A DNA stretch of 54,225 nt. Source: an uncultured Gemmatimonadota bacterium (lineage in GTDB: Bacteria > Gemmatimonadota > Gemmatimonadetes > Gemmatimonadales > Gemmatimonadaceae). Positions 25,060 through 43,670 of this stretch are shown piece after piece. The translations under genes and the position numbers were made by a program. The stretch covers positions 1 to 54,225 of the forward strand of contig CAIRYG010000006.1 of assembly GCA_903882745.1 (NCBI GenBank). Direction: 5' to 3'. Every line of letters begins with the position of its first letter. Position 1 is the stretch's first letter. Under the pieces are notes generated by a model that worked only from the letters and a program-made list of their open reading frames with translations, was not told the DNA's origin and made no database searches.

Positions 25060-26244
25060 GTGATCGTCGCTGCACTCCGAAACTTCGTTCGCCGCCCGCT
25101 CGCCCCCCTGCCAGATTGGGTGCGTGTGGCGTGGACGCGTTGGGGCAGCGCCGCAGTCATCACCATCTGGACCCTCATGGTGGTGATTGCCACCGTACAG
25201 CGAGGCGTGCTCTCCCAAGAGCACACCACTTGGCCAATTTTCCGACAGTCGTACTCACATTTACTCGCGGGCGTCGACCTCTATCGCTACTACCCCAGTG
25301 AGCAGGGCACCGGCGCGGCGGACCTCTTCAAGTACAGCCCCCCCTGGGCGCTTCTCCACGGAGCGTTTTCACCGCTCCCCTTTGCGCTCGGGCTCCTCCT
25401 CTGGAACCTGCTGAATGCCACGGTGCTCTTTGCCGCGGTTCGCGCGCTCTTGCCAAAGCCACAGGCCACACTGGCCCTGTTGTTCATGTCGCCGTGGTTG
25501 CTCCACGCGGTGCAAAGTTCTTCGAGCAACGCCTTAGTGGCGGGCTTGGTGGTGATGGCGTACCTCAACATAGAGCGCCGAAACCTCTGGGGCGCCGCGT
25601 TCGGCATTGCCGCGGGCACCCTCATCAAGATTTTTCCCGTTGCGGCGGTGAGCTTTGCCCTCTTCCGCCCAGGCAAACTGCGCTTTGCGCTCGCCCTCAC
25701 GGTGATGTTCGTGGCGCTCATCGCGCTCCCGCTCGCGGTCGTCACGCCAGACTCCCTGCTCTTTCAGTACGCCAACTGGCAGCGCATGGTGACGCTCGAC
25801 GAAAACGACCTGGTCTTTGGGCGTTCTGTCCTCGAGCTGATTCGCACCCTCTCCGGCACGGAGATGCCGAACTGGCCCGCACAGCTCGTGGGGAGCGCGC
25901 TCCTGTTGGTGCCACCGCTGCTGCGTCGCGATCGCTGGAACGACGCCGAGTATCGGATGCGCTTCTTGTGCTCGCTGCTGGTGTTCGCGGTGATTTTTAA
26001 TCACCAAGCGGAGCATCAGTCGTACATTATCGCGGCAACGGGGGTTGCCTTGTGGTTCGTGACAGCGGAACGTCGCGAACTCTGGCGCGTGGCAATACTC
26101 GCCGGATGCCTCATAGGCTATGAGGCGGTGCCATACACCATTGCGTGGGTCGCCATGATGGTGGAGCTGCTCGCCGCCGCACCGGCTATGGGATGGAACC
26201 TGCGAGCAACTCCCGCGCGGCCACGTCCAGGGTACGCGCCGTAA
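25060..26244 (+). CDS. GT87-like membrane glycosyltransferase (DUF2029 family)
   Basis: A 394-residue polytopic membrane protein with about nine to ten hydrophobic segments. The first periplasmic loop carries the acidic/aromatic signature region (GVDLYRYYPSEQ... then FKYSPPWALLHGAF) expected of polyprenyl-phosphate-mannose-dependent GT87 enzymes, followed by LLLWNLLNATVLF and GTLIKIFPVAAVSFAL. Likely role: transfer of mannose or a related sugar onto an envelope glycan from a lipid carrier. The start is GTG at 25060; an out-of-frame ATG just before it hits a stop at once. Its last 59 bases overlap the 3' end of the convergent histidine kinase gene, so the true C-terminus is fixed by both frames staying open. 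Confidence 0.75.
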   Translation: MIVAALRNFVRRPLAPLPDWVRVAWTRWGSAAVITIWTLMVVIATVQRGVLSQEHTTWPIFRQSYSHLLAGVDLYRYYPSEQGTGAADLFKYSPPWALLHGAFSPLPFALGLLLWNLLNATVLFAAVRALLPKPQATLALLFMSPWLLHAVQSSSSNALVAGLVVMAYLNIERRNLWGAAFGIAAGTLIKIFPVAAVSFALFRPGKLRFALALTVMFVALIALPLAVVTPDSLLFQYANWQRMVTLDENDLVFGRSVLELIRTLSGTEMPNWPAQLVGSALLLVPPLLRRDRWNDAEYRMRFLCSLLVFAVIFNHQAEHQSYIIAATGVALWFVTAERRELWRVAILAGCLIGYEAVPYTIAWVAMMVELLAAAPAMGWNLRATPARPRPGYAP

Positions 26245-27925
26245 ACGGCTTCGCAAGAAACCCTGAGTGTGCGTTCACCAGCCCTGTCCACTCGACCAGA
26301 TCCTCCGAGTGTCCCGAGACGTACAGCACCCGAGTCTCCGGACGTTGGGCACGCACGGCGACCGCAAGATCGCGCCCGCTAAGCCCCGGCATCAGCATGT
26401 CAGTGACGAGCAGGTGGATCTCCCCGACGTACGCGCGCGCGAGCGCGAGCGCCTCCTGGCCATTGGCCGCACAGAGCACCGTGAACCCGCCCCGTTCGAG
26501 TGACCGCTGCATCAAATGGCGAATCGCGTCCTCGTCTTCGGCGACAAGCGCGGTACCTGCTCGCCCAGCAACCGTCACCGGCGCGACATCCACCGGCTCA
26601 AGCTCTGGCAGTCCGTGCGTTTCCGGCAGATAGATCGAGAAGCAGCTCCCCGCCCCGACTTCGCTGTCCACCACCACGTGGCCACCCGACTGCGCCACGA
26701 TACCGTACAGCATGGAGAGGCCAAGCCCGGTCCCACGGTCCAGCGCCTTGGTCGAGAAGAACGGCTCAAAGATGCGGCCCAGATGCTCCCGCTTGATTCC
26801 CGTCCCCGTGTCGCGGACTTGCAGCAGAATCCAATCGCCGGCAAGAACACCGCGTGCCGTAATAGGATCGTCGGCCATCACCCGTGCACGCGCGGTCTGG
26901 ATGTGCAACACGCCACCGCGCGGCATCGCGTCGCGCGCATTGATCGCCAAGTTCAGGAGCGCCTGCTCCATCTGACTGCGATCCGCTGACACGAGACACA
27001 GTTCCGCCGGCGTGTGAATCTCAATCGCGATATGCTCAACAATCAGGCGCCGGAGCATGGGTTCAACCGCATACACCACGGCGTTCAGGTCCAGCACGGC
27101 CAATCGGAGCATCTGATTGCGGCTGAACGCCAGCAGCTGTTGCGTCAGTGTCGTCGCGCGCCGCGCCGACTTGAGAATCTCGTCGACGTCGCTCCGCTGC
27201 GGAGTTCCTTCGGTGAGGTCCTCCTGCAGAAACTCGGCGTTCGACAAAATGACGGTCATCAGATTGTTGAAGTCGTGGGCGATTCCTCCCGCCAGCCGCC
27301 CCACGGCATCCATCTTCTGCGCCTGCTCCAACTGCGCAGTGAGCGAGCGCTGCTCGGTGACATCACGCCACGTCCACACACGTCCAATCGTCCGGCCATC
27401 AATGCGCTGGGGCAGCGAATACCGCTCAAAGACGCGTCCATCAGTAAAGCGCACAACATCCGACGTGGATCGGTCGGTATGCTGCGCGGCCGCACTCGCC
27501 TCCGCCACAAGGGCAATCGGATCTTCCACGCGCGATGAAAGGAAGCCGAAGAGCGCCGTCTCGTCGCGGGCGTTGAGCACCTCCTCCGGGAGCTGCAGCA
27601 ATGCGGCGAATCGGGAGTTCGAGCGCACAATCCGGCCGTCGAGATCCATCACGACGATGCCGTCAGCAGTGCTCTCAAGCGTGGCCGCCAGCACCGAGAG
27701 TGCCTGACTCACACCGTCCTTCTCGTCAATCGCATTGCGCAAACGATAGTAGCGATCAGCGAGTTCAACGGAGAGGTTCTCCATCGAGAGCTCCAGCATG
27801 GCGCGCTCGTCATCGGCCTGCACGTACGCGGCGGCGACCGCCGTGAACAGCGGCCGCAACGATTCCGGCACGGCGTCAAGCGAACCGAACTGTTTGCGCA
27901 GCTGGCGCACCAGGAGCTTGTGCAC
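26186..27925 (-). CDS. Hybrid sensor histidine kinase (PAS, HisKA, HATPase, receiver)
   Basis: A 579-residue cytoplasmic kinase without transmembrane segments. An N-terminal helical region (1-75) precedes a PAS domain (about 76-195). The H-box GGIAHDFNNLMTV has His217, and the N-box LLNLAINARDAMPRGG and the ATP-lid GTGLGLSMLYGIV are intact. A C-terminal receiver domain runs from about 455 to the end with the DED acidic pair and the phospho-acceptor Asp in LLVTDMLMPG. Hybrid kinases of this type usually pass phosphate to their own receiver or to a separate phosphotransfer protein. GTG at 27925 follows the FIST gene stop by one base, so the FIST protein is the likely input module. The C-terminal end overlaps the glycosyltransferase gene. 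Confidence 0.92.
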   Translation of the reverse strand: MHKLLVRQLRKQFGSLDAVPESLRPLFTAVAAAYVQADDERAMLELSMENLSVELADRYYRLRNAIDEKDGVSQALSVLAATLESTADGIVVMDLDGRIVRSNSRFAALLQLPEEVLNARDETALFGFLSSRVEDPIALVAEASAAAQHTDRSTSDVVRFTDGRVFERYSLPQRIDGRTIGRVWTWRDVTEQRSLTAQLEQAQKMDAVGRLAGGIAHDFNNLMTVILSNAEFLQEDLTEGTPQRSDVDEILKSARRATTLTQQLLAFSRNQMLRLAVLDLNAVVYAVEPMLRRLIVEHIAIEIHTPAELCLVSADRSQMEQALLNLAINARDAMPRGGVLHIQTARARVMADDPITARGVLAGDWILLQVRDTGTGIKREHLGRIFEPFFSTKALDRGTGLGLSMLYGIVAQSGGHVVVDSEVGAGSCFSIYLPETHGLPELEPVDVAPVTVAGRAGTALVAEDEDAIRHLMQRSLERGGFTVLCAANGQEALALARAYVGEIHLLVTDMLMPGLSGRDLAVAVRAQRPETRVLYVSGHSEDLVEWTGLVNAHSGFLAKPFTARTLDVAARELLAGSIP

Positions 27926-27926
27926 G

Positions 27927-29063
27927 CTACGACTCGGTGAGTGTGGTGATCGTCATCGTCTGGTTGTGAAGTTCACAACGCGCCGACGACGAGAACGGAG
28001 AAATCTCGCCGTAGGAATAGAACCCGCCCAGCACGGTGTCGTCGCCCAAGACCTCACGCACGCTCTCGACTTCTTCTTCCACGCGTTGCTTCAGCACGAG
28101 CTTTCGTCCGACACAGCTAATCAAGATGGCGAGCGTGGCGGCATTCGCCGCAAGCGGCTCAACGCTGGCACTGGCCGCGTCGTGCGCGCCATCGATCAGG
28201 CGGTCAAAGTTGGCCTTCATCAGACGCGCCGAGGCCCCTTGCGGCATGTCGCCCGCAAAGGTGAGACTGCCGGCGACTTCGTCGACACCAAGAATCGTGC
28301 GCACCACGCGACGATTTCCCTCGCCCGCGAGGCTCAGCGGAAAGAGCAGTCCACTGGCCGGCAGAGCGTCGGCGTGCGGCCCCAAGTAGGACTTGTACAG
28401 TGCGAGCGCCGAACGTCCATCGAGTTCGTACAGCACATTCCCCACCGAGCGCGTGATAATCCGGTCCGGCCCAAAGGAGTCCCAGCCCCCCATGGAGCCG
28501 TACCCAACGCGCAGGCGCTCACCGTAGAAGCCGATCCCCACCACCGCGCCCTCGACGGCCGCGCCGTCAAAACACACCACCGTCTGCTCGAACTTGGCAG
28601 CATCGCCGGCGAGTCCGCCGGTCACCGCGACCTCTCGGGGCAACGCGTCACGCAATCCGCGGACGAGTTCCGTGCCGTTGATGTGAACGCCCTCGGCAAG
28701 CACAAACAGGTGCGTGAGTCCTGCACCGGCGAGTTCACGCGCCAGTTGTCCCCCAGCCTCGGCGCTCGCTGACGCATCGGCAATCGGCACCTGCGCAAGC
28801 CGAAGCGTGGAGTGCTCAAGCTCCAACGCCGTCGCCACGACCGTGTCGTCCGTGACTTCGACGCCGCAGATTTCACCGGCCGTACTGCAGCCGATTTGTC
28901 GCGCGTCGGGGTAGAGCGCGCGCAGCGCGCGGATGCAGGATCCCTCGGCCAGCGCTTCGCGTGCGCCAAAGATCAGCACAACCTGTGGTGTTCGCACACC
29001 AGCACCCGCCAAGGGCTCGGACCATCCCTCAGCACTTGTCCAACGGCGTTGCTCGACTCGCAT
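27927..29063 (-). CDS. FIST domain sensory protein
   Basis: A 378-residue soluble protein consisting of a FIST N domain (about 20-215; VVLIFGAREAL, IGCSTAGEICG, and VTGGLAGDAAKFEQTVV) and a FIST C domain (about 220-370; LYELDGRSALALYKSYLG, then LGDDTVLGGFYSYGEISP near the end). FIST domains are thought to bind small ligands, perhaps amino acids, and to feed signals into two-component systems. Here the gene directly precedes a hybrid histidine kinase with a one-base gap, strong evidence for a functional pair. ATG at 29063 gives the usual family N-terminus. Confidence 0.9.
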   Translation of the reverse strand: MRVEQRRWTSAEGWSEPLAGAGVRTPQVVLIFGAREALAEGSCIRALRALYPDARQIGCSTAGEICGVEVTDDTVVATALELEHSTLRLAQVPIADASASAEAGGQLARELAGAGLTHLFVLAEGVHINGTELVRGLRDALPREVAVTGGLAGDAAKFEQTVVCFDGAAVEGAVVGIGFYGERLRVGYGSMGGWDSFGPDRIITRSVGNVLYELDGRSALALYKSYLGPHADALPASGLLFPLSLAGEGNRRVVRTILGVDEVAGSLTFAGDMPQGASARLMKANFDRLIDGAHDAASASVEPLAANAATLAILISCVGRKLVLKQRVEEEVESVREVLGDDTVLGGFYSYGEISPFSSSARCELHNQTMTITTLTES

Positions 29064-29205
29064 CGGGATAGCTCCGAAACTTTTTGGGTGGAGTGCGACG
29101 TAGAAAGATAGATAACGCACGGCCGGCACGGCGAGATGGCAAGCGCGTGACGGCCCGAGGTCCATCGCCCTAGATTTACTGTCTCATATTTGAACAGGAG
29201 TCCCG

Positions 29206-30891
29206 ATGTCCCCCGTCGATCCGAGTTCGTCTCCACGCGACAGTCGTCGTGAGTTCGTGACCAAGTCGCTGATGCTGGGCGCCGCGATGGTCTTGGCTCC
29301 GGAAGCCGCCGCGGGAGAGCGGCCGGCGGGTGCGCCGACCCCGGCACGCCCCGCACCAACCGGGGGCAGCTCGGCACGACAGGCACCGGCGCAGGACTCG
29401 CCCTTCGAGAAATCGGTGGGGGAGCTACAGGCCATGATGGCGCGCGGCGCCCTCACGTCGCGATCCCTGACGGAGTTTTACCTCGCCCGCCTCGACAGCT
29501 TGGACGCCAAGGGTCCCACGGTGAATAGCGTGATTGAGCGGAACCCCGACGCGCTCGCCATTGCGGAAACGATGGATGCCGAGCGTGCGGCGGGACGCAT
29601 CCGCGGTCCGCTCCACGGGATTCCGGTGCTCATCAAGGACAACATCGACAGCGCCGACCGGATGCACACCACGGCGGGCTCGCTCGCACTCGCCACCAGT
29701 ATCGCCCCGAAGGACGCGTTCATTGTCGAGCGCCTGCGCGCCGCAGGCGCGGTGATCCTCGGCAAGACCAATCTCAGCGAGTGGGCCAACTATCGGTCAA
29801 CGCGCAGCACCAGCGGCTGGAGCGGACGCGGCGGGCAGACCAAGAACCCGTACGTCCGCGACCGGAATCCCTGTGGCTCGAGTTCAGGCACTGGAGCCGC
29901 GATCGCCGCCGATTTCGCGGCAGTGGGTATCGGCACCGAGACCGACGGGTCAATCATCTGCCCGTCGTCGATGAATGGCCTGGTTGGACTGAAGCCCACG
30001 GTCGGGCTCTGGAGCCGCTCCGGGATTATCCCCATCTCCGCGTCGCAGGATACCGCAGGTCCCATGGGGCGCACCGTTGCCGACGTGGCCGCACTCTTGG
30101 GCCTCCTCACAGGAGTCGACCCACGCGACAGCGCCACCGCCGCGAGCAAAGGAAAGTCGCACACCGACTACACCACCTTCCTCGATGTGGACGGGCTGCG
30201 CGGCGCGCGCATTGGCGTTGCGCGCAACCTGGCGGGATTCAATTACAGCGTGGACGCGCGATTTGAGAGCGCCATCGATGCGATGGCCAAGGCCGGTGCG
30301 GTGATCGTCGACAAAACCAACTTCACCACGCTCGGCAAGTTTGACGAGGCCGAGTCGCTGGTGCTGGACTACGAGTTCAAAGCTGGGCTGAACGCCTATC
30401 TCGCGTCGCTCGGTGCATCGGCACCCGTGAAATCGCTGACCGAGTTGATTGCCTGGAACGAAAAGAACGCCGCGCGCGAGATGCCCTGGTTCGCGCAGGA
30501 GATTTTTGTGCGCGCCAACACGCGTGGCCCACTCACCGACCGCGCGTACCGTGACGCGCGCGCCACCTGCGTACGGCTCGCGCGCTCCGAAGGGATCGAT
30601 GCACTGATGGCGACGCATCGACTCGACGCGATCATCTGTCCGTCCAATCAGCCCGCTTGGCCGACGGACCCGTTGAATGGGGATCACTTCACCGGCGGGA
30701 ACACCTCGTTCGCAGCCGTCTCGGGGTACCCGAGCATCACCGTCCCAATGGGCTTCGACCACGAACTGCCGCTCGGGCTCTCGTTCATTGGGAAAGCGTG
30801 GAGCGAGCCCACCCTGTTGAAGTTGGCATGCGGTTTTGAACAGAAGACGCGCGCGCGCCGGGCCCCGCAGTTCCTTCCAACGCTCGGCTGA
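29206..30891 (+). CDS. Amidase signature family enzyme, Tat-exported
   Basis: A 561-residue hydrolase of the amidase signature family. A twin-arginine-like signal (DSRREFVTKSLMLGAAMVL) is followed by an Ala/Pro/Gly-rich linker to about residue 65. The Ser-cisSer-Lys triad is visible: Lys144 in VLIKDNID, Ser225 in NPCGSSSGTGAA, and nucleophile Ser249 in ETDGSIICPSS. The enzyme should hydrolyse an amide, possibly an amino-acid or peptide amide, in the periplasm. ACAGGAG lies a few bases before ATG 29206. The stop overlaps the start of the next gene (TGATG), so it is translated together with the serine hydrolase. Substrate not predictable from the motif set. Confidence 0.92.
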   Translation: MSPVDPSSSPRDSRREFVTKSLMLGAAMVLAPEAAAGERPAGAPTPARPAPTGGSSARQAPAQDSPFEKSVGELQAMMARGALTSRSLTEFYLARLDSLDAKGPTVNSVIERNPDALAIAETMDAERAAGRIRGPLHGIPVLIKDNIDSADRMHTTAGSLALATSIAPKDAFIVERLRAAGAVILGKTNLSEWANYRSTRSTSGWSGRGGQTKNPYVRDRNPCGSSSGTGAAIAADFAAVGIGTETDGSIICPSSMNGLVGLKPTVGLWSRSGIIPISASQDTAGPMGRTVADVAALLGLLTGVDPRDSATAASKGKSHTDYTTFLDVDGLRGARIGVARNLAGFNYSVDARFESAIDAMAKAGAVIVDKTNFTTLGKFDEAESLVLDYEFKAGLNAYLASLGASAPVKSLTELIAWNEKNAAREMPWFAQEIFVRANTRGPLTDRAYRDARATCVRLARSEGIDALMATHRLDAIICPSNQPAWPTDPLNGDHFTGGNTSFAAVSGYPSITVPMGFDHELPLGLSFIGKAWSEPTLLKLACGFEQKTRARRAPQFLPTLG

Positions 30892-32471
30892 TGCGCACTT
30901 TCTCTCGTAGGCTCATCGCGTTGAGTGTTGCCCTGCCCATGGCGCTCGCTGCGCAGGCATCCGCACCCGCCACGCCAGCTGCACCCCCGCCAGGCTTTGA
31001 CAGCTACGTCCAGAAAGTGCTGGCCGCCTTTCAGGTACCGGGTGTCGCGGTTGCGATTGTGAAGGACGGGCGCGTGGTACTCGCCAAAGGGTATGGGGTT
31101 CGCACACTCGGCAAACCGGAGCAGGTCGATTCGCTGACGCGCTTCGGTATTGCATCCAACACCAAGGCGTTCACGGCCACTGCACTCGCAATCCTCGTGG
31201 AGCGTGGCAAGCTCAAGTGGGACGAGCCGGTGCGCACATACCTGAAAGACTTCGCGATGTATGACCCCTTCGTCACGCGCGAGATCACCGTGCGCGACCT
31301 GCTCGTTCACCGCAGTGGCCTCGGGCTCGGTGCGGGCGACCTGCTCTGGTGGCCCGCCTCGACCTACACCCGCGCCGAGATTGCGCAGCGACTGCGCTAC
31401 ATCAAGCCGGCAACGTCGTTCCGCAGTGCCTACGCCTACGACAACGTGCTGTATCTCGTGGCCGGCCAGTTGATCGAAAAGATCAGCGGGCAGTCGTGGG
31501 AGACTTTCATGAGCACTGAGTTGCTCAATCCGCTGGGGATGTCGCACAGCAGCGTGCGGCACGCCGATGCGGCGTCCGGCGGCAACGTGGCCACAACGCA
31601 CGCCGAGGTGGACGGCACGGTGGTCGCGGTACCCCCGATGACCAGCGACAATACCAATCCCGCTGGAGGCATCAACGCGGGCGCCGCCGATATTGCGCGC
31701 TGGATGATCACGCAGCTCGACTCGGGGCGCACCCCAGAGGGCAAGCGCCTCTGGTCGCCGGCCTCAGCGCGCGAACTGTGGACAGGGGTCACCCCCATGC
31801 CCATTGGTGGCAGTGTGCCCGCGCTGGCGCCGCTGCGCCCCAGCTTCAACCTCTACGGACTCGGCTTCGGGGTGCGTGATTATCGCGGGGTGAAGATGCT
31901 CTCGCATACCGGAGGACTTCCGGGCTACGTATCTGAGATCTTGATGCTGCCCGATCAAAAGATCGGAGTCGCGGTGTTCACCAATCAGGAATCATCGGCC
32001 GCCTTCCGTTCAATCACGCTCGCGGTGCTCGATCATTACCTCGGGGTGAAGCCGGCCTGGGACTGGCTCGGCGCGTACACCACGCTAGCCGCGCAACAAC
32101 GTACCGAACTCGCCAGCGCGACCACCAAGGAAACGGCGCGTGACACCACCGTGCGCCCAACCCTGCCCCTGCCGAAGTACGCCGGCACCTACAGCGACGT
32201 GTGGTATGGCGACGTCACGGTGGGCTCCGCCAATGGACAGCTCACGATGCGTTTCTCTCACACGCCGGAACTCACCGGCGTGCTCGAGCACCAGAAAGGC
32301 GACGCCTTTATTGTGCGCTGGAAGGATCGGTCGCTCCGCGCCGACGCCGTCGTGACGTTCGACGTGAAAGCGGGCGCTGTGACCCGCGTGCGCATGGTCC
32401 CGACACCGGGCGTCGATTTCAGTTTTGATTTTCAGGACCTTGATCTGCGTCCGAAGCGCGGCGGAAAATAG
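30891..32471 (+). CDS. Serine hydrolase, beta-lactamase class C / esterase type
   Basis: A 526-residue exported enzyme. The signal peptide ends LAAQA. The catalytic motifs of the class C beta-lactamase/D-aminopeptidase/EstB superfamily are complete: SNTK (Ser89, Lys92), Y-D-N (Tyr183, Asn185) and HTG (339-341). After about residue 400 a DUF3471-like beta-rich tail follows (LPKYAGTYSDVWYGDVTV...), common in such hydrolases. It could act on D-amino-acid peptides, esters or lactams; true beta-lactamase activity is not implied. Coupled to the upstream amidase through an overlapping stop/start. Confidence 0.9.
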   Translation: MRTFSRRLIALSVALPMALAAQASAPATPAAPPPGFDSYVQKVLAAFQVPGVAVAIVKDGRVVLAKGYGVRTLGKPEQVDSLTRFGIASNTKAFTATALAILVERGKLKWDEPVRTYLKDFAMYDPFVTREITVRDLLVHRSGLGLGAGDLLWWPASTYTRAEIAQRLRYIKPATSFRSAYAYDNVLYLVAGQLIEKISGQSWETFMSTELLNPLGMSHSSVRHADAASGGNVATTHAEVDGTVVAVPPMTSDNTNPAGGINAGAADIARWMITQLDSGRTPEGKRLWSPASARELWTGVTPMPIGGSVPALAPLRPSFNLYGLGFGVRDYRGVKMLSHTGGLPGYVSEILMLPDQKIGVAVFTNQESSAAFRSITLAVLDHYLGVKPAWDWLGAYTTLAAQQRTELASATTKETARDTTVRPTLPLPKYAGTYSDVWYGDVTVGSANGQLTMRFSHTPELTGVLEHQKGDAFIVRWKDRSLRADAVVTFDVKAGAVTRVRMVPTPGVDFSFDFQDLDLRPKRGGK

Positions 32472-32528: not shown

Positions 32529-34298
32529 GTGAACATTCTGTTGGTACACGGCATTGGGCACTGCGACAGCGACAGCGATTACTACGCCAGCTGGCGACAG
32601 GTCATTACCGCAGCGCTGCAGGGGGCGGGAGCCACGACGCCCCCGACTTTCACAGAATTTGCGTACGACGATCTCTTTGAGGCGCGCTACGCAGGCCCCG
32701 ACCTCTATGCCGGTGCGCTCCTCGAACTGACGGGAAGTGTCGCGCTGCACGGACTCTCCGACGGGATGGCCGCAGGAACCGATCACACGCGAGCACTCGA
32801 ATCTCCCGCCGACTGGATGCGCTGGCGACTCGGTATGGTGTCCCAGTTCGTGGTTGATTCCGCCTTGCGGCGGCAGCTGCGCAATCGGCTACACCGCGCC
32901 GTCACGCTGAACCCGCCAGACATCATAGCGGCGCACAGCCTCGGCTCGCTCGTGACGTTCGACTATCTGCGCAACGACCCGCGCGCCGCGCTGCCCACCA
33001 GCACGTTGGTGACCTTCGGTTCTCAAATTGGAAATCTGTTTGTGCGCAATCGCCTCTGGCCGGGACGCTTCACGCTCCCGCCAGTCAAGCGCTGGTTCCA
33101 GCTGTTCAACCCCGAGGACCACGTCTTTACCGCGGAGATTCCGCTACAGGGATCACCGGAGTTTACGGAAGTTCGCACACCAAGCGCAGCGGGACACGCC
33201 CCCACACGATCCGCTGACGGCCCGGGCTATCTCGACCACGAAGCAACCCAACGGGGCGTCTGGTCGGTGCTCGCCACTCCTGCCGCCACACGCGAGTTCA
33301 CCCGCGCCGCCGCCGTCCAGCGCTTGTCACAGCGGAAGCCGCGTCGCCGCGCGTTACTCATTGGCATCAATGCGTATCCCGATCCTGCGCATCGACTGGC
33401 TGGCTGCGTCAACGACACGTTCCTGATGTCGAGCCTTCTGCAAGAACGCGGATTCGACCCCACCGACATCCGTGTCCTGCTCGACGCGCGCGCGACCGCC
33501 AGCGCGATTCGCACCCGTCTTGCGTGGCTCCTCGACGGCGCGGACGATGGCTGCGAACGGGTGCTGTTCTATAGCGGACACGGAGCGCAACTGCCGGGCT
33601 ACTCCGCTTCGGAAACCGTCGATCACGTGGACGAATGTCTGGTGCCGTACGACTTTGACTGGTCGCTCGAGCGCGCAATCACCGACAACGACTTCTTCCG
33701 CCTCTACAGCGAGCTGCCATTCAGCGCGCGATTCTCCGCGATCCTCGACTGCTGCCACGCGGGAGGCATGACCCGAGATCGTGGCCTTCGGGATGGTGGC
33801 CTTCGTGACGGTGGCCCGCGCATGCGCGGACTCACACCGCCCGACGATATTCGCCATCGCCAGCTGCAATGGGATGGCGAGCAGCAGTGCTGGTCGTCGC
33901 GGTCGTTGCGACCGATCAGTGCGCGCTACCGGCGCACCACCGATGCGCCGATGACGGGCCTCGGCCGCGCCACCTACCGACTTGGGCGCGGGATGCGACT
34001 ACGTGGACCACTGAGCCGCGCCACCGAACAGCGATTGATTGCGCAGCAACGGGGGCTCTATCTGCCCGTCTTGTTCGAGGCGTGCGGTGAAGGCGAGCTC
34101 GCGCAGGAATACCGACATGGGGCCGAGTCGTATGGTGCCTTCACCTGGACACTCGCCGCCGCCTTACGTCGCTCGCCGCGCATGAGCTGGGAACGCCTGC
34201 AGCGGGTGGTCAGCGCCGACTTCGCGGTGCGGGGCTACAACCAACGCCCCGTGCTCGTCGGCGCGTCGGCGCCAGTACGACGCCGCGCACTGTCCTAG
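32529..34298 (+). CDS. Fusion of an alpha/beta-hydrolase with a caspase-like (C14) peptidase
   Basis: A 589-residue cytoplasmic protein with no signal peptide. Residues 1-250 look like an alpha/beta-hydrolase: MNILLVHGIG strand, nucleophile elbow AHSLGS with Ser137, VTFGSQIG, and Asp/His candidates in NPEDH (197-198) and YLDH (237). Residues 274 to about 570 are a caspase/metacaspase fold: RALLIGINAYPD, catalytic His351 in YSGHG, and catalytic Cys409 in DCCHAGG. The linker (about 258-275) is strongly basic (QRLSQRKPRRR), and an Arg-Asp-Gly repeat (RDRGLRDGGLRDGG) follows the active-site Cys; both are candidate self-cleavage regions for an Arg/Lys-specific peptidase. GTG at 32529 has GGAG at good distance. 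A stand-alone gene between the hydrolase pair and a convergent peptidase. Confidence 0.85.
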   Translation: MNILLVHGIGHCDSDSDYYASWRQVITAALQGAGATTPPTFTEFAYDDLFEARYAGPDLYAGALLELTGSVALHGLSDGMAAGTDHTRALESPADWMRWRLGMVSQFVVDSALRRQLRNRLHRAVTLNPPDIIAAHSLGSLVTFDYLRNDPRAALPTSTLVTFGSQIGNLFVRNRLWPGRFTLPPVKRWFQLFNPEDHVFTAEIPLQGSPEFTEVRTPSAAGHAPTRSADGPGYLDHEATQRGVWSVLATPAATREFTRAAAVQRLSQRKPRRRALLIGINAYPDPAHRLAGCVNDTFLMSSLLQERGFDPTDIRVLLDARATASAIRTRLAWLLDGADDGCERVLFYSGHGAQLPGYSASETVDHVDECLVPYDFDWSLERAITDNDFFRLYSELPFSARFSAILDCCHAGGMTRDRGLRDGGLRDGGPRMRGLTPPDDIRHRQLQWDGEQQCWSSRSLRPISARYRRTTDAPMTGLGRATYRLGRGMRLRGPLSRATEQRLIAQQRGLYLPVLFEACGEGELAQEYRHGAESYGAFTWTLAAALRRSPRMSWERLQRVVSADFAVRGYNQRPVLVGASAPVRRRALS

Positions 34299-34325: not shown

Positions 34326-35867
34326 CTACGGCTTCGCGAGGAGTTTGGCCATGAGCGCGTCAGCGATCGACTTGGCATCCGCGGCATCGTCGTTCGTGAG
34401 TACAATGACCGTGGCGTGGCGGTCCGGCACGCGCACGAAGGCGCTGCGCTTTCCGGTCTCGGTGCCGTAGGCCGCATAGCGCGTCACGCCACCCGCAGTC
34501 TCGGTCTTCCATCCCTGCGTGGCGTCAATCGGATCGCGCGTGGCCGACGTGTCGGCCGCGGCGCCGCGTGTGTAGGTGCGCGGCTGCTCGAGTCCGAGCG
34601 CCAGGCGATACAGCTCGTCAACATTGGAGAGCACATCGCCGGCATCAGTCGCGGTCGTTTTGTGTAAACCGACGGGAGTCGACGCGCGCTGCGTCACGCA
34701 CCGCTGGAACGCTGTCTGCGGCGGAGTGGCAGCACGGCCACGTCCTGCGGCCGAATCGGGGGCAGCGGCGCCGCCCGCACGCCCGCGGCCCGCGGGCTCG
34801 GGAACCTGCGCGCAGATAGCTTCGAAGACGGCCGACATGCGACCGAGCGAAAAGTTCGGCACTGTGGTCGTCGGCATGTACCGCGCCTGCGCCGGAATAC
34901 CGAACGACTGATCCACAAACACCTTGCCGTCCTTGGCCACCAGCACGGTTGCACCACCAGCAGCGGCGTTCTCGTACTTGGCAAAGAGTGACTTCACCAA
35001 CGACGGAGCAACCGGCGACTCGCTTGCCACACGATGCAACATTTTCCGTGCACCGAGGTCGTAGCGATCGCCAGGATGCAGCGTCAGGAATGGACTCCCG
35101 GGGTCGGTGGCATCCTTGCCGTTGTATACAAATCCACGATTCCGACCAATGATCGTTCCCGTGTCGCCGCGCACAACCCACGCCGTTCCTTCGTCCTCGG
35201 AAATCGCCAACAGCGTGGGGTACTTGGGAATAATCGAGTCGGCGAGATCCGGAAGCCGCTCACGCGCCACCACGTGCTGATCAATGCCAACACCACGCAG
35301 ATAGGCGAAGCCCTTCTGGTAGCCGGGGGAGTCCATAATGAAGTTGTTGTTCGACGGCGCGCCGCGCACCAAGAAGTCGCCAAGGATTGACGCACCCGCC
35401 GACGATCCGGCCACAACGCCACCGCGTGCGAGCAGCTCATTGAACGCGGCTTCGGTCTTGGTGCCAGCGTAGGCATCTACCAAGTGAAACTGGCGCCCGC
35501 CTTCGAACCAAATACCACCGGCCTTCTTGATCAACGCGACGAATGCGTCGCTGTCGGCAACTTTGCGATCCGTCGTGAACAAGACCTGCACATTGTGCGC
35601 GCCATTCTGCTTCCAGCTGCGCGTATTCGATCCCTCGGCGGGATAGCTCTCCGCCCCACCAGCATTGGGTACAGTGAGGATCAGCGCATCGGGCCCACCC
35701 GCTGCGTCGATAAACGCCTTGTACACCTCGGGTCCCATGGAGCCACCGCCCACCACAATCACGGTGCCCTTTGCGGGCCCGACCTTGAGCGTGCCCTTTG
35801 AGGCTTGTGCCGTGAGCACAAGAGGAACGCAGCTGAGGAGCAACGCGAAGCGGCGAATGGCAAACAT
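34326..35867 (-). CDS. Cyanophycinase-like S51 peptidase with degenerate beta-lactamase-like domain
   Basis: A 513-residue exported protein. The signal peptide ends LTAQA. Residues 30-285 match the cyanophycinase/peptidase S51 fold: GTVIVVGGGSMGPEVY, the nucleophile motif GSSAGAS with Ser156, and GIDQHVVARERLPDL (about 194-208). From about 305 the sequence resembles a class C beta-lactamase domain (GATVLVAKDGKVFVDQSFGI, then SLGRMSAVFEA) but the SxxK motif is lost: the Ser and Lys positions are Arg343 and Ala346. The C-terminal part (YAAYGTETGKRSAFVRVPD...VIVLTNDD) also fits that family. An Ala/Gly-rich insert splits the tail. ATG at 35867 has AGAGG just upstream. Likely acts on peptides or Asp-containing polymers outside the cytoplasm. 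Confidence 0.82.
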   Translation of the reverse strand: MFAIRRFALLLSCVPLVLTAQASKGTLKVGPAKGTVIVVGGGSMGPEVYKAFIDAAGGPDALILTVPNAGGAESYPAEGSNTRSWKQNGAHNVQVLFTTDRKVADSDAFVALIKKAGGIWFEGGRQFHLVDAYAGTKTEAAFNELLARGGVVAGSSAGASILGDFLVRGAPSNNNFIMDSPGYQKGFAYLRGVGIDQHVVARERLPDLADSIIPKYPTLLAISEDEGTAWVVRGDTGTIIGRNRGFVYNGKDATDPGSPFLTLHPGDRYDLGARKMLHRVASESPVAPSLVKSLFAKYENAAAGGATVLVAKDGKVFVDQSFGIPAQARYMPTTTVPNFSLGRMSAVFEAICAQVPEPAGRGRAGGAAAPDSAAGRGRAATPPQTAFQRCVTQRASTPVGLHKTTATDAGDVLSNVDELYRLALGLEQPRTYTRGAAADTSATRDPIDATQGWKTETAGGVTRYAAYGTETGKRSAFVRVPDRHATVIVLTNDDAADAKSIADALMAKLLAKP

Positions 35868-36054
35868 GGAAACCTCTATGTGGTGACGGTGCACGGGAAC
35901 GCTGCCAACAGAAGATGCGCCACCGCGTCACCCTCGACAAGCACCACCCCTGCCTCACGTTCTGCGCTCCCTGTCCTGCGCTCCTTGCTAGTTCTGCGCC
36001 ATATTTATCACATCGACCGCCCCCTGCGGTTCCTTCACGACCCACAGCTCTCTT

Positions 36055-42140: not shown

Positions 42141-42174
42141 CGAAGGGGCGTCGCTTCCAAGCGGCGCCCCTTCG
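42141..42174 (+). terminator. Terminator-like hairpin after susCD
   Basis: A 16-bp stem with one G-T pair (CGAAGGGGCG...CGCCCCTTCG) and a minimal CC loop begins 20 bases after the SusD stop. A strong T run is missing, so termination is likely but not certain. Confidence 0.65.
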
Positions 42175-42299
42175 TGCATCCGGGCATCCGGGCATCCGCG
42201 AATCAGCACACGAGAGCCCTTTCGCTCGGGCGCTCGCACGCGCAACTTTTCCACCAGCGGGACACACCTCCCCGCGCAGTCCCACTCTCGGAGCTCTGC

Positions 42300-43670
42300 A
42301 TGCGTCGTTTTCTTCGTGCCATCGTCCCGCTGACCTTTGCTGCGGTCGCAGCCTCCGTTGGTCAGGCCCAAACGCGCGGCGCGGCCGCCACAGCGCCGCT
42401 CAAGGCTGGCGAGCTCCGCCTCACGTATTTGGGGAACGCGGGATGGGAAATCACCGACGGCAAGAAGATCGTGCTCGTGGATCCCTTCCTCACGCAGTTC
42501 GCGCGCTGGACGCCGAAGGGGCCCGCCCCGGAAGTCGGCCCCAATGATCCGTATCCGGCCGACACGGCGCTGATCAATGCGCACGTCAAGAAGGCCGACT
42601 ATATCGTCATCACCCACGGGCACCCCGACCATGCGCTCGACGCCGGCTACATCTCCAAGCGCACCGGCGCGGTGATCATTGGCCACGAGACCGCGGCGAA
42701 TCTCGCGCGCGCCTACGACGTGCCAGACAGCAACATCATCACCGTGGTCGGCGGCGAAGATTATGAGTTCGGCGATTTCTCGCTGCGCGTGGTACCAAAC
42801 ATCCACAGCGCGCTCGACAAAAAGCACTATTTCAATAACGGTCGCGGCATTGTTGGGAATGCCCCCCGCGGGCTCAAGGCGCCGCTCAAGCGCAACGCCT
42901 ATGTCGAGGGCGGCAACCTCGCCTACATCCTGCGGATGGGTGGGCATGAAGTCTTGATCATGGGGTCCATGAACTATCTCGAGAACGAGATGGTTGGCCT
43001 GCGCCCCGACATCGCCTTGGTGGGTGCCAACAGTCAGCGCCTCGAGATTCACGATTTCACCGGCCGCCTGATGCGCGCGCTCGGCTCGCCGGCGCTGGTG
43101 ATTCCCTCGCACGCTGATGCGTACGGCGATCCGAACCCCACCGCCGGCGCGCTCGCTGACCGGAAGAAGTTCATTCAGGAAGTGGCTGCGTCGTCGCCTA
43201 CGAGCCGCGTGATTTCGCCTGTGTGGTTTGAGCCCATTGTGGTGCCCGCGCTCGCGCGTCCCGCAGCGACGGCGACCACCGGACGCCACGTGATTAATCC
43301 CCCCGGCATCGCGCCCCTTGTGCCGGCGTATTCGGTGGCGATTCGTGATGGCGATCAGGTGTTCGTCTCTGGCATGACCGGCATCAAGCCGGGCACGCAG
43401 GACATCATCGAGGGCGGCGTTGGCGCGCAGACGCGGCAGACCATGGAGAACATCCGGACGTCGTTACAGGCAACCGGTGCAACCATGGCGGACGTCGCTG
43501 AGTGCACCGTGTTCCTCATGGACATGGCCGACTACGCCGCCATGAACAGCGTGTACGTGGAGTTCTTCACGGTGAATCCGCCGGCTCGCGCGGCGATGGC
43601 CGTCACGGCGCTCCCCCGCCCCGCCGCGCGCGTGGAGATCAAGTGCAGTGCAAAGATCCACCTTCGGTAG
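42300..43670 (+). CDS. Fusion of a metallo-beta-lactamase-fold hydrolase and a RidA domain
   Basis: A 456-residue exported protein; the signal peptide ends VGQAQ. Residues 35-310 are an MBL-fold (UPF0173/UlaG-like) domain: YLGNAGWEI, VDPFLTQF, zinc motif THGHPDH with His106, His108, Asp110 and His111, and VVPNIHSA further on. Residues 330-456 are a RidA/YjgF domain: SVAIRDGDQVFVSGMTG, QTRQTMENIRTSLQATGATMADV, NPPARAAMAVTALP with the deaminase Arg430, and VEIKCSA with Glu446. RidA proteins hydrolyse reactive enamines/imines; the lactonase-like MBL half could supply or open a related substrate. ATG at 42300 starts the signal peptide; no clear ribosome binding site precedes it. Stands alone after susCD. 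Confidence 0.87.
   Translation: MRRFLRAIVPLTFAAVAASVGQAQTRGAAATAPLKAGELRLTYLGNAGWEITDGKKIVLVDPFLTQFARWTPKGPAPEVGPNDPYPADTALINAHVKKADYIVITHGHPDHALDAGYISKRTGAVIIGHETAANLARAYDVPDSNIITVVGGEDYEFGDFSLRVVPNIHSALDKKHYFNNGRGIVGNAPRGLKAPLKRNAYVEGGNLAYILRMGGHEVLIMGSMNYLENEMVGLRPDIALVGANSQRLEIHDFTGRLMRALGSPALVIPSHADAYGDPNPTAGALADRKKFIQEVAASSPTSRVISPVWFEPIVVPALARPAATATTGRHVINPPGIAPLVPAYSVAIRDGDQVFVSGMTGIKPGTQDIIEGGVGAQTRQTMENIRTSLQATGATMADVAECTVFLMDMADYAAMNSVYVEFFTVNPPARAAMAVTALPRPAARVEIKCSAKIHLR

Follow-up and report, generated by a model that had tools for sequence, protein, structure and literature searches.

Does a single bacterial gene encode both a lipid or ester hydrolase and the protease that controls it? 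The question is raised by one locus in the window, the 54,225-nucleotide stretch of DNA from an uncultured Gemmatimonadota bacterium that was analysed in this study. A sequence-only reading had proposed that one 589-residue protein joins a lipase-like domain to a caspase-like peptidase. As shown in Table 1, this was borne out by one open reading frame on the forward strand, in which an alpha/beta-hydrolase-like half is followed by a complete C14 caspase half. The motif GGAG lies 6 bases 5' of the GTG start, and the GC content at the three codon positions (0.69, 0.53, and 0.74) is like that of the adjoining genes. Because of the GGAG before the GTG and the neighbour-like third-position GC of 74%, we regard the open reading frame as a real gene.

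Table 1. Positions of the fusion gene and of the features of its product in the window.
Feature	Position	Strand	Basis
Fusion gene, 589 aa, GTG start	32529..34298	+	ORF list; orthologs in two other same-genus genomes
N-terminal alpha/beta-hydrolase domain, residues 1-259	32529..33305	+	Profile match and structural match
Ser137, presumed nucleophile (AHSLGS)	32937..32939	+	HSLG invariant in 16 family members
Asp197, presumed triad acid	33117..33119	+	Invariant in 16 family members
Ala229, column of the family's conserved His	33213..33215	+	Five residues before Y234
Basic interdomain linker QRLSQRKPRRR, residues 264-274	33318..33350	+	Three-ortholog alignment
C14 caspase domain (p20 and p10), residues 272-577	33342..34259	+	Pfam PF00656, E 1.4e-25
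His351, catalytic dyad (YSGHG)	33579..33581	+	Metacaspase alignment
Cys409, catalytic dyad (DCCHAGG)	33753..33755	+	Metacaspase alignment
Arg-rich loop after the catalytic Cys, residues 416-434, RDG repeat	33774..33830	+	Ortholog alignment

An assembly error, with the fusion missing from relatives, had been named as a possible source of this gene. It was ruled out, since the same fusion is present in three genomes, the window's own and two others of the same genus. The ortholog in a Lac Pavin MAG (L002, JAPLKT010000007.1; the same contig as G315:C3) is 85% identical, and that in the third genome (G397) is 46% identical and lies at a different locus. The fusion is rare; it was found in 3 of the 18 genus genomes and was seen neither elsewhere among the 179 family genomes searched (E 1e-24) nor in the phylum sample; the viral collections held no close relative of it. 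The three fusions formed one clade (100/98) in the hydrolase tree, in which a trypsin-fused Streptomyces row was disregarded for its wrong reading frame.

The caspase half matched PF00656 over profile columns 1-224 of 233, and its closest PDB relatives were plant metacaspases (metacaspase-4, E 1e-21). Both His351 and Cys409 aligned with the metacaspase dyad, confirming the complete caspase core that had been claimed. D296, S349, and D407 aligned with D95, S156, and D211 of T. brucei MCA2, which we take to be the residues of an acidic S1 pocket that accepts Arg or Lys at P1. The cleavage after Arg or Lys expected by the sequence-only reading is thus consistent with the matched S1-pocket residues and is supported in silico. 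The expected calcium dependence was weakened: with the four MCA2 calcium ligands that we assumed for the comparison, two columns were kept (D368 and D386), whereas the other two were changed (N387 and R416). The caspase half was the sole C14 match in the window's genome. It scored 33.1 bits with the EACC1-associated caspase model NF047832, below the curated cut-off of 140, and an EACC1 caspase identity was ruled out on this score.

No Pfam hydrolase model scored above its cut-off within residues 1-259. The lipase-like N-terminal fold that had been proposed was upheld by a profile comparison and by a modest AlphaFold model. Compared with a profile of ten hydrolases, of which nine have a caspase gene as neighbour and one has a CHAT gene, the hydrolase half gave a probability of 99.2% and an E value of 1.1e-19 over 244 columns. 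The model of this half, built from a five-row alignment, had a mean pLDDT of 58 and a core of 70-90 and is usable for the core alone. It fitted B. subtilis lipase A with a Z score of 11.4 and an rmsd of 3.1 over 151 residues, and also aligned with cutinases, carboxylesterases, and DDHD domains. Foldseek by itself was ambiguous, with azoreductases and a DDHD domain on top; VIA-align favoured lipases. A full-chain AlphaFold model from a two-row alignment reached a pLDDT of only 31. In a 7.3 Gb plasmid collection, the few matches to the hydrolase half were alike among themselves and resembled the family of hydrolases encoded beside caspases. By its sequence, the hydrolase half belongs to this one specific family and not to hydrolases at large.

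The catalytic state of the hydrolase half was less clear-cut. The serine and the aspartate of the presumed triad are invariant, but the family His, which stands five residues ahead of a conserved Tyr, is replaced by Ala229 in the window protein; the Lac Pavin ortholog also has Ala, and G397 has His. H223 or H237 may substitute for the family His in the window protein, and the loop that carries these candidates is below pLDDT 50 in the model. Because of Ala229 at the His column and the low confidence of this loop, catalysis by the hydrolase half is only putative. The replacement also bears on a different explanation, which we consider unlikely: the hydrolase half may be a pseudo-enzyme, or a sensor or targeting domain that regulates or localises the caspase, with the protease as the true effector. 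Caspases elsewhere use fused regulatory domains, and of the two halves the hydrolase is the faster to diverge, with an identity between the window protein and G397 of 36%, against 51% for the caspase half. However, Ser137 and Asp197 are retained, G397 keeps the His, H223 or H237 could take its place, and stand-alone relatives of the hydrolase half from different phyla have retained all of Ser, Asp, and His.

Two segments had been put forward as natural self-cleavage sites. The basic linker is present and Arg-rich in 3 of 3 fusions, with R269, P271, and R274 invariant in the three orthologs. However, a protein with 11.5% Arg can readily contain a run of this kind: an 11-residue run as basic as QRLSQRKPRRR appeared somewhere in the shuffled fusion protein in 14% of cases, and the linker could be basic merely through an Arg-rich genome. 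The Arg-Asp-Gly repeat after the catalytic Cys is present but not conserved. The window protein has one extra RDGGL-type copy, which is missing from the shorter repeat of L002, and G397 has no repeat. The repeat was therefore dropped as a conserved cleavage feature.

Relatives of the hydrolase half were first picked by sequence, and their neighbours were read afterwards. The loci for this reading were hand-picked from the hits, some already listed with a caspase annotation; therefore, the pairing of hydrolase and protease is given as a strong trend, and its frequency is no unbiased measurement. In Gemmatimonadota, Rhizobiales, Bacteroidota, and Actinomycetota, relatives had a caspase-type gene as their immediate neighbour, and the two genes often overlapped by 4 bp. 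The caspase gene immediately preceded the hydrolase gene, in the same orientation, in Hymenobacter tibetensis (L048), Bradyrhizobium (L049), Sinorhizobium medicae, S. chiapasense, Sinorhizobium sp. M14, an Agrobacterium Ti plasmid, Rhizobium ruizarguesonis, S. terangae, Ensifer adhaerens, S. meliloti, and S. fredii GR64. It was immediately upstream in 4 of 4 strong Gemmatimonadota relatives, and in two of these four (G144 and G246) the adjacent caspase gene was the sole C14 match found per genome. Several partner caspases with a weak or absent Pfam match were called by RefSeq naming, by BLAST to better-scoring partners, or by HG and DACR motifs. On an actinobacteria-like contig in a viral collection, whose host was guessed from composition and relatives, the hydrolase gene is directly upstream of a caspase-WD40 gene. 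On Rhizobium and Sinorhizobium fredii plasmids (L063 2073-7417 and L111 1082-6408), the caspase-hydrolase pair sits in a recurrent cassette, followed by an HTH regulator, an ImmA/IrrE-type or I42 inhibitor-type protein, and a C1 peptidase.

Partners of other kinds were also observed. A CHAT-domain gene pairs with a family hydrolase in S. fredii NXT3, trypsin is fused to the hydrolase in Streptomyces jietaisiensis and adjacent to it in Rhodococcus, and VMAP proteins lie beside it in Streptomyces. STAND-like WD40 partners have N-termini with caspase-like His-Gly and Cys motifs, as judged by eye. In three Gemmatimonadota genomes (L040 733-3378; L042; L039 124-2889, reverse strand), a subtilisin (S8) is fused to the hydrolase family in proteins of about 880-920 residues. 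Family members with no protease neighbour were found in Acinetobacter, on two viral contigs, and as secreted Gemmatimonadota forms. The Acinetobacter hydrolase (L066 3629-4513) also occurs in records named Acinetobacter phage MD-2021a (H74 and H75), where it is annotated as PGAP1-like. The search for the same domain pair and its neighbours, as the sequence-only reading had proposed, thus gave the fusion in two other genomes and hydrolase relatives that adjoin caspase genes. The partner caspases are of the SDACRS type and not close to the fused DCCHAGG type; therefore, the fusion seems to be a pairing of its own and not a joined form of the common operon. These results support a protease and an ester or lipid hydrolase acting as a regulated effector, in a pairing that recurs with caspases and less often with other proteases. 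The exchange of partners is also compatible with a relation through a common scaffold or substrate that involves no cleavage.

The genes around the fusion gene in the window encode a GT87 protein, a histidine kinase, a FIST protein, an amidase, a beta-lactamase-family protein, an S51 peptidase, and a gamma-glutamyltransferase. The S51 peptidase (34326-35894, reverse strand; 522 residues) is covered by its profile only at residues 56-248, leaving a long C-terminal remainder, and an empty-site comparison found it absent from other genus members. The GT87 and beta-lactamase-family genes of the window (25060-32471) correspond to one open frame in the Lac Pavin MAG (L002 3197-5959); the histidine kinase, FIST, and amidase genes by which the window separates the two are absent there. 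PADLOC on ten neighbours gave no defence gene, in line with the earlier reading, and a defence island around the fusion gene was ruled out by this result. Its lone match was to a protein 8 kb off, at that protein's RidA-like end. This protein (42174-43670, forward strand) looks like an MBL-fold hydrolase with a RidA/YjgF-like domain after it, and PD-T4-2_B matches its RidA-like part at residues 380-494 (E 1.6e-20). No MoxR, vWA, or VMAP core gene lies beside the fusion gene; a VMAP-C search of the window's genome gave no match, though the control of that search also went unmatched.

This setting could be read as that of two housekeeping enzymes fused for convenience, for example for lipoprotein or peptide-ester turnover, with neither an activation link nor a role in cell death. 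The site is chromosomal, amid metabolic and secreted hydrolase genes with no defence genes, and the fusion gene starts 57 bases past the beta-lactamase-family gene on the same strand and is just downstream of the same neighbour in L002. The patchy presence of the fusion in the genus argues against this housekeeping reading, as does the strong and mostly plasmid-borne pairing of the family with caspase-type proteases, and we consider it improbable.

Our preferred reading, in which our confidence is evenly balanced, is that the window protein is a cytosolic one-chain, two-enzyme effector, whose protease would control a hydrolase effector acting on a membrane lipid or acyl ester. A stress or invasion signal would switch on the caspase part. 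The activated caspase would then cut after Arg or Lys, probably in its own linker and/or the post-Cys loop, and the cleavage would free or unblock the hydrolase. The freed hydrolase would attack a membrane lipid or other acyl ester, so that growth would stop or the cell would die. The observed parts of this scheme are the fusion, the two folds (with differing confidence), the dyad of the protease, Ser and Asp of the hydrolase, and the repeated pairing of the hydrolase family with caspase-type and other proteases. No gating insertion was seen in the window protein. The regulated effector module suggested by the sequence-only reading therefore stands as far as the recurrent hydrolase-protease pairing carries it, whereas the trigger, the cleavage, the substrate, the outcome, and which half controls the other are what we infer. 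We tentatively extend the two-enzyme effector reading to a class of protease-gated lipases or esterases, in which one hydrolase family would be activated by whichever protease is paired with it, be it a caspase, a metacaspase fusion, CHAT, trypsin, or subtilisin.

Previous work demonstrated protease-activated pro-nucleases in Canu, Hachiman, and AVAST, in which a caspase can be the partner (PMC12799240). This 2025 report showed protease-activated nucleases to be common to several bacterial immune systems and predicted further proteolytically activated enzyme classes. By analogy, the window protein might be a Canu-like anti-phage abortive-infection system in which a hydrolase replaces the nuclease. 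This is a narrower form of the two-enzyme effector reading, so that the confidences of the two overlap, and we consider it possible but doubtful. The logic is the same as in the Canu caspase-nuclease and trypsin-nuclease pairs, where a protease stands repeatedly beside a hydrolytic effector and the protease family is swapped between systems (PMC12799240), and relatives of the hydrolase occur in plasmid and mobile contexts. However, PADLOC assigned the fusion protein to a generic caspase model only, and the window has no sensor gene or defence island. Moreover, gating loops and activation have been demonstrated for the Canu effector, an MBL-fold nuclease, whereas the partner in the window is a predicted alpha/beta-hydrolase.

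The literature searched held no report of activity for a caspase-partnered alpha/beta-hydrolase. Kaur et al. 2020 (PMC7159879) reported that caspases of VMAP systems always occur with a neighbouring alpha/beta-hydrolase gene; therefore, the pairing is already known as a prediction, and the window protein is a one-chain variant of it, outside any visible VMAP core. Like the MoxR-vWA-VMAP ternary conflict systems (PMC7159879), it links a caspase-superfamily peptidase to an alpha/beta-hydrolase, and family hydrolases adjoin VMAP proteins in Streptomyces. Unlike in those systems, the two enzymes are parts of a single chain, next to whose gene no MoxR, vWA, or VMAP gene was found, and the protease is metacaspase-like (DCCHAGG). 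It shares the p20/p10 order, the His-Cys dyad, and the acidic S1-pocket residues with plant MC4 and T. brucei MCA2, but differs from them in the fused N-terminal hydrolase and in two of the four MCA2 calcium ligands. A metacaspase of Chitinophaga pinensis (PMC3501461) likewise combines a metacaspase with a lipase-type domain in a single protein; however, that domain has a GDSL fold and not an AHSLGS alpha/beta-hydrolase, and the protein carries an extra amidase domain. Three points go beyond PMC7159879: both enzymes occur in one chain, two-gene pairs occur where the stretches read show no VMAP core, and a single hydrolase family is found with exchanged protease classes. With its caspase, CHAT, trypsin, and subtilisin partners, this family is a concrete candidate for the enzyme classes predicted in PMC12799240. 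If the protease-gated class is real, it would be the lipid-attacking counterpart of the protease-activated nucleases, and the window form would be a single self-activating protein. This one-chain form is a handy test object, in which a single gene holds the predicted cutter, target, and cut site.
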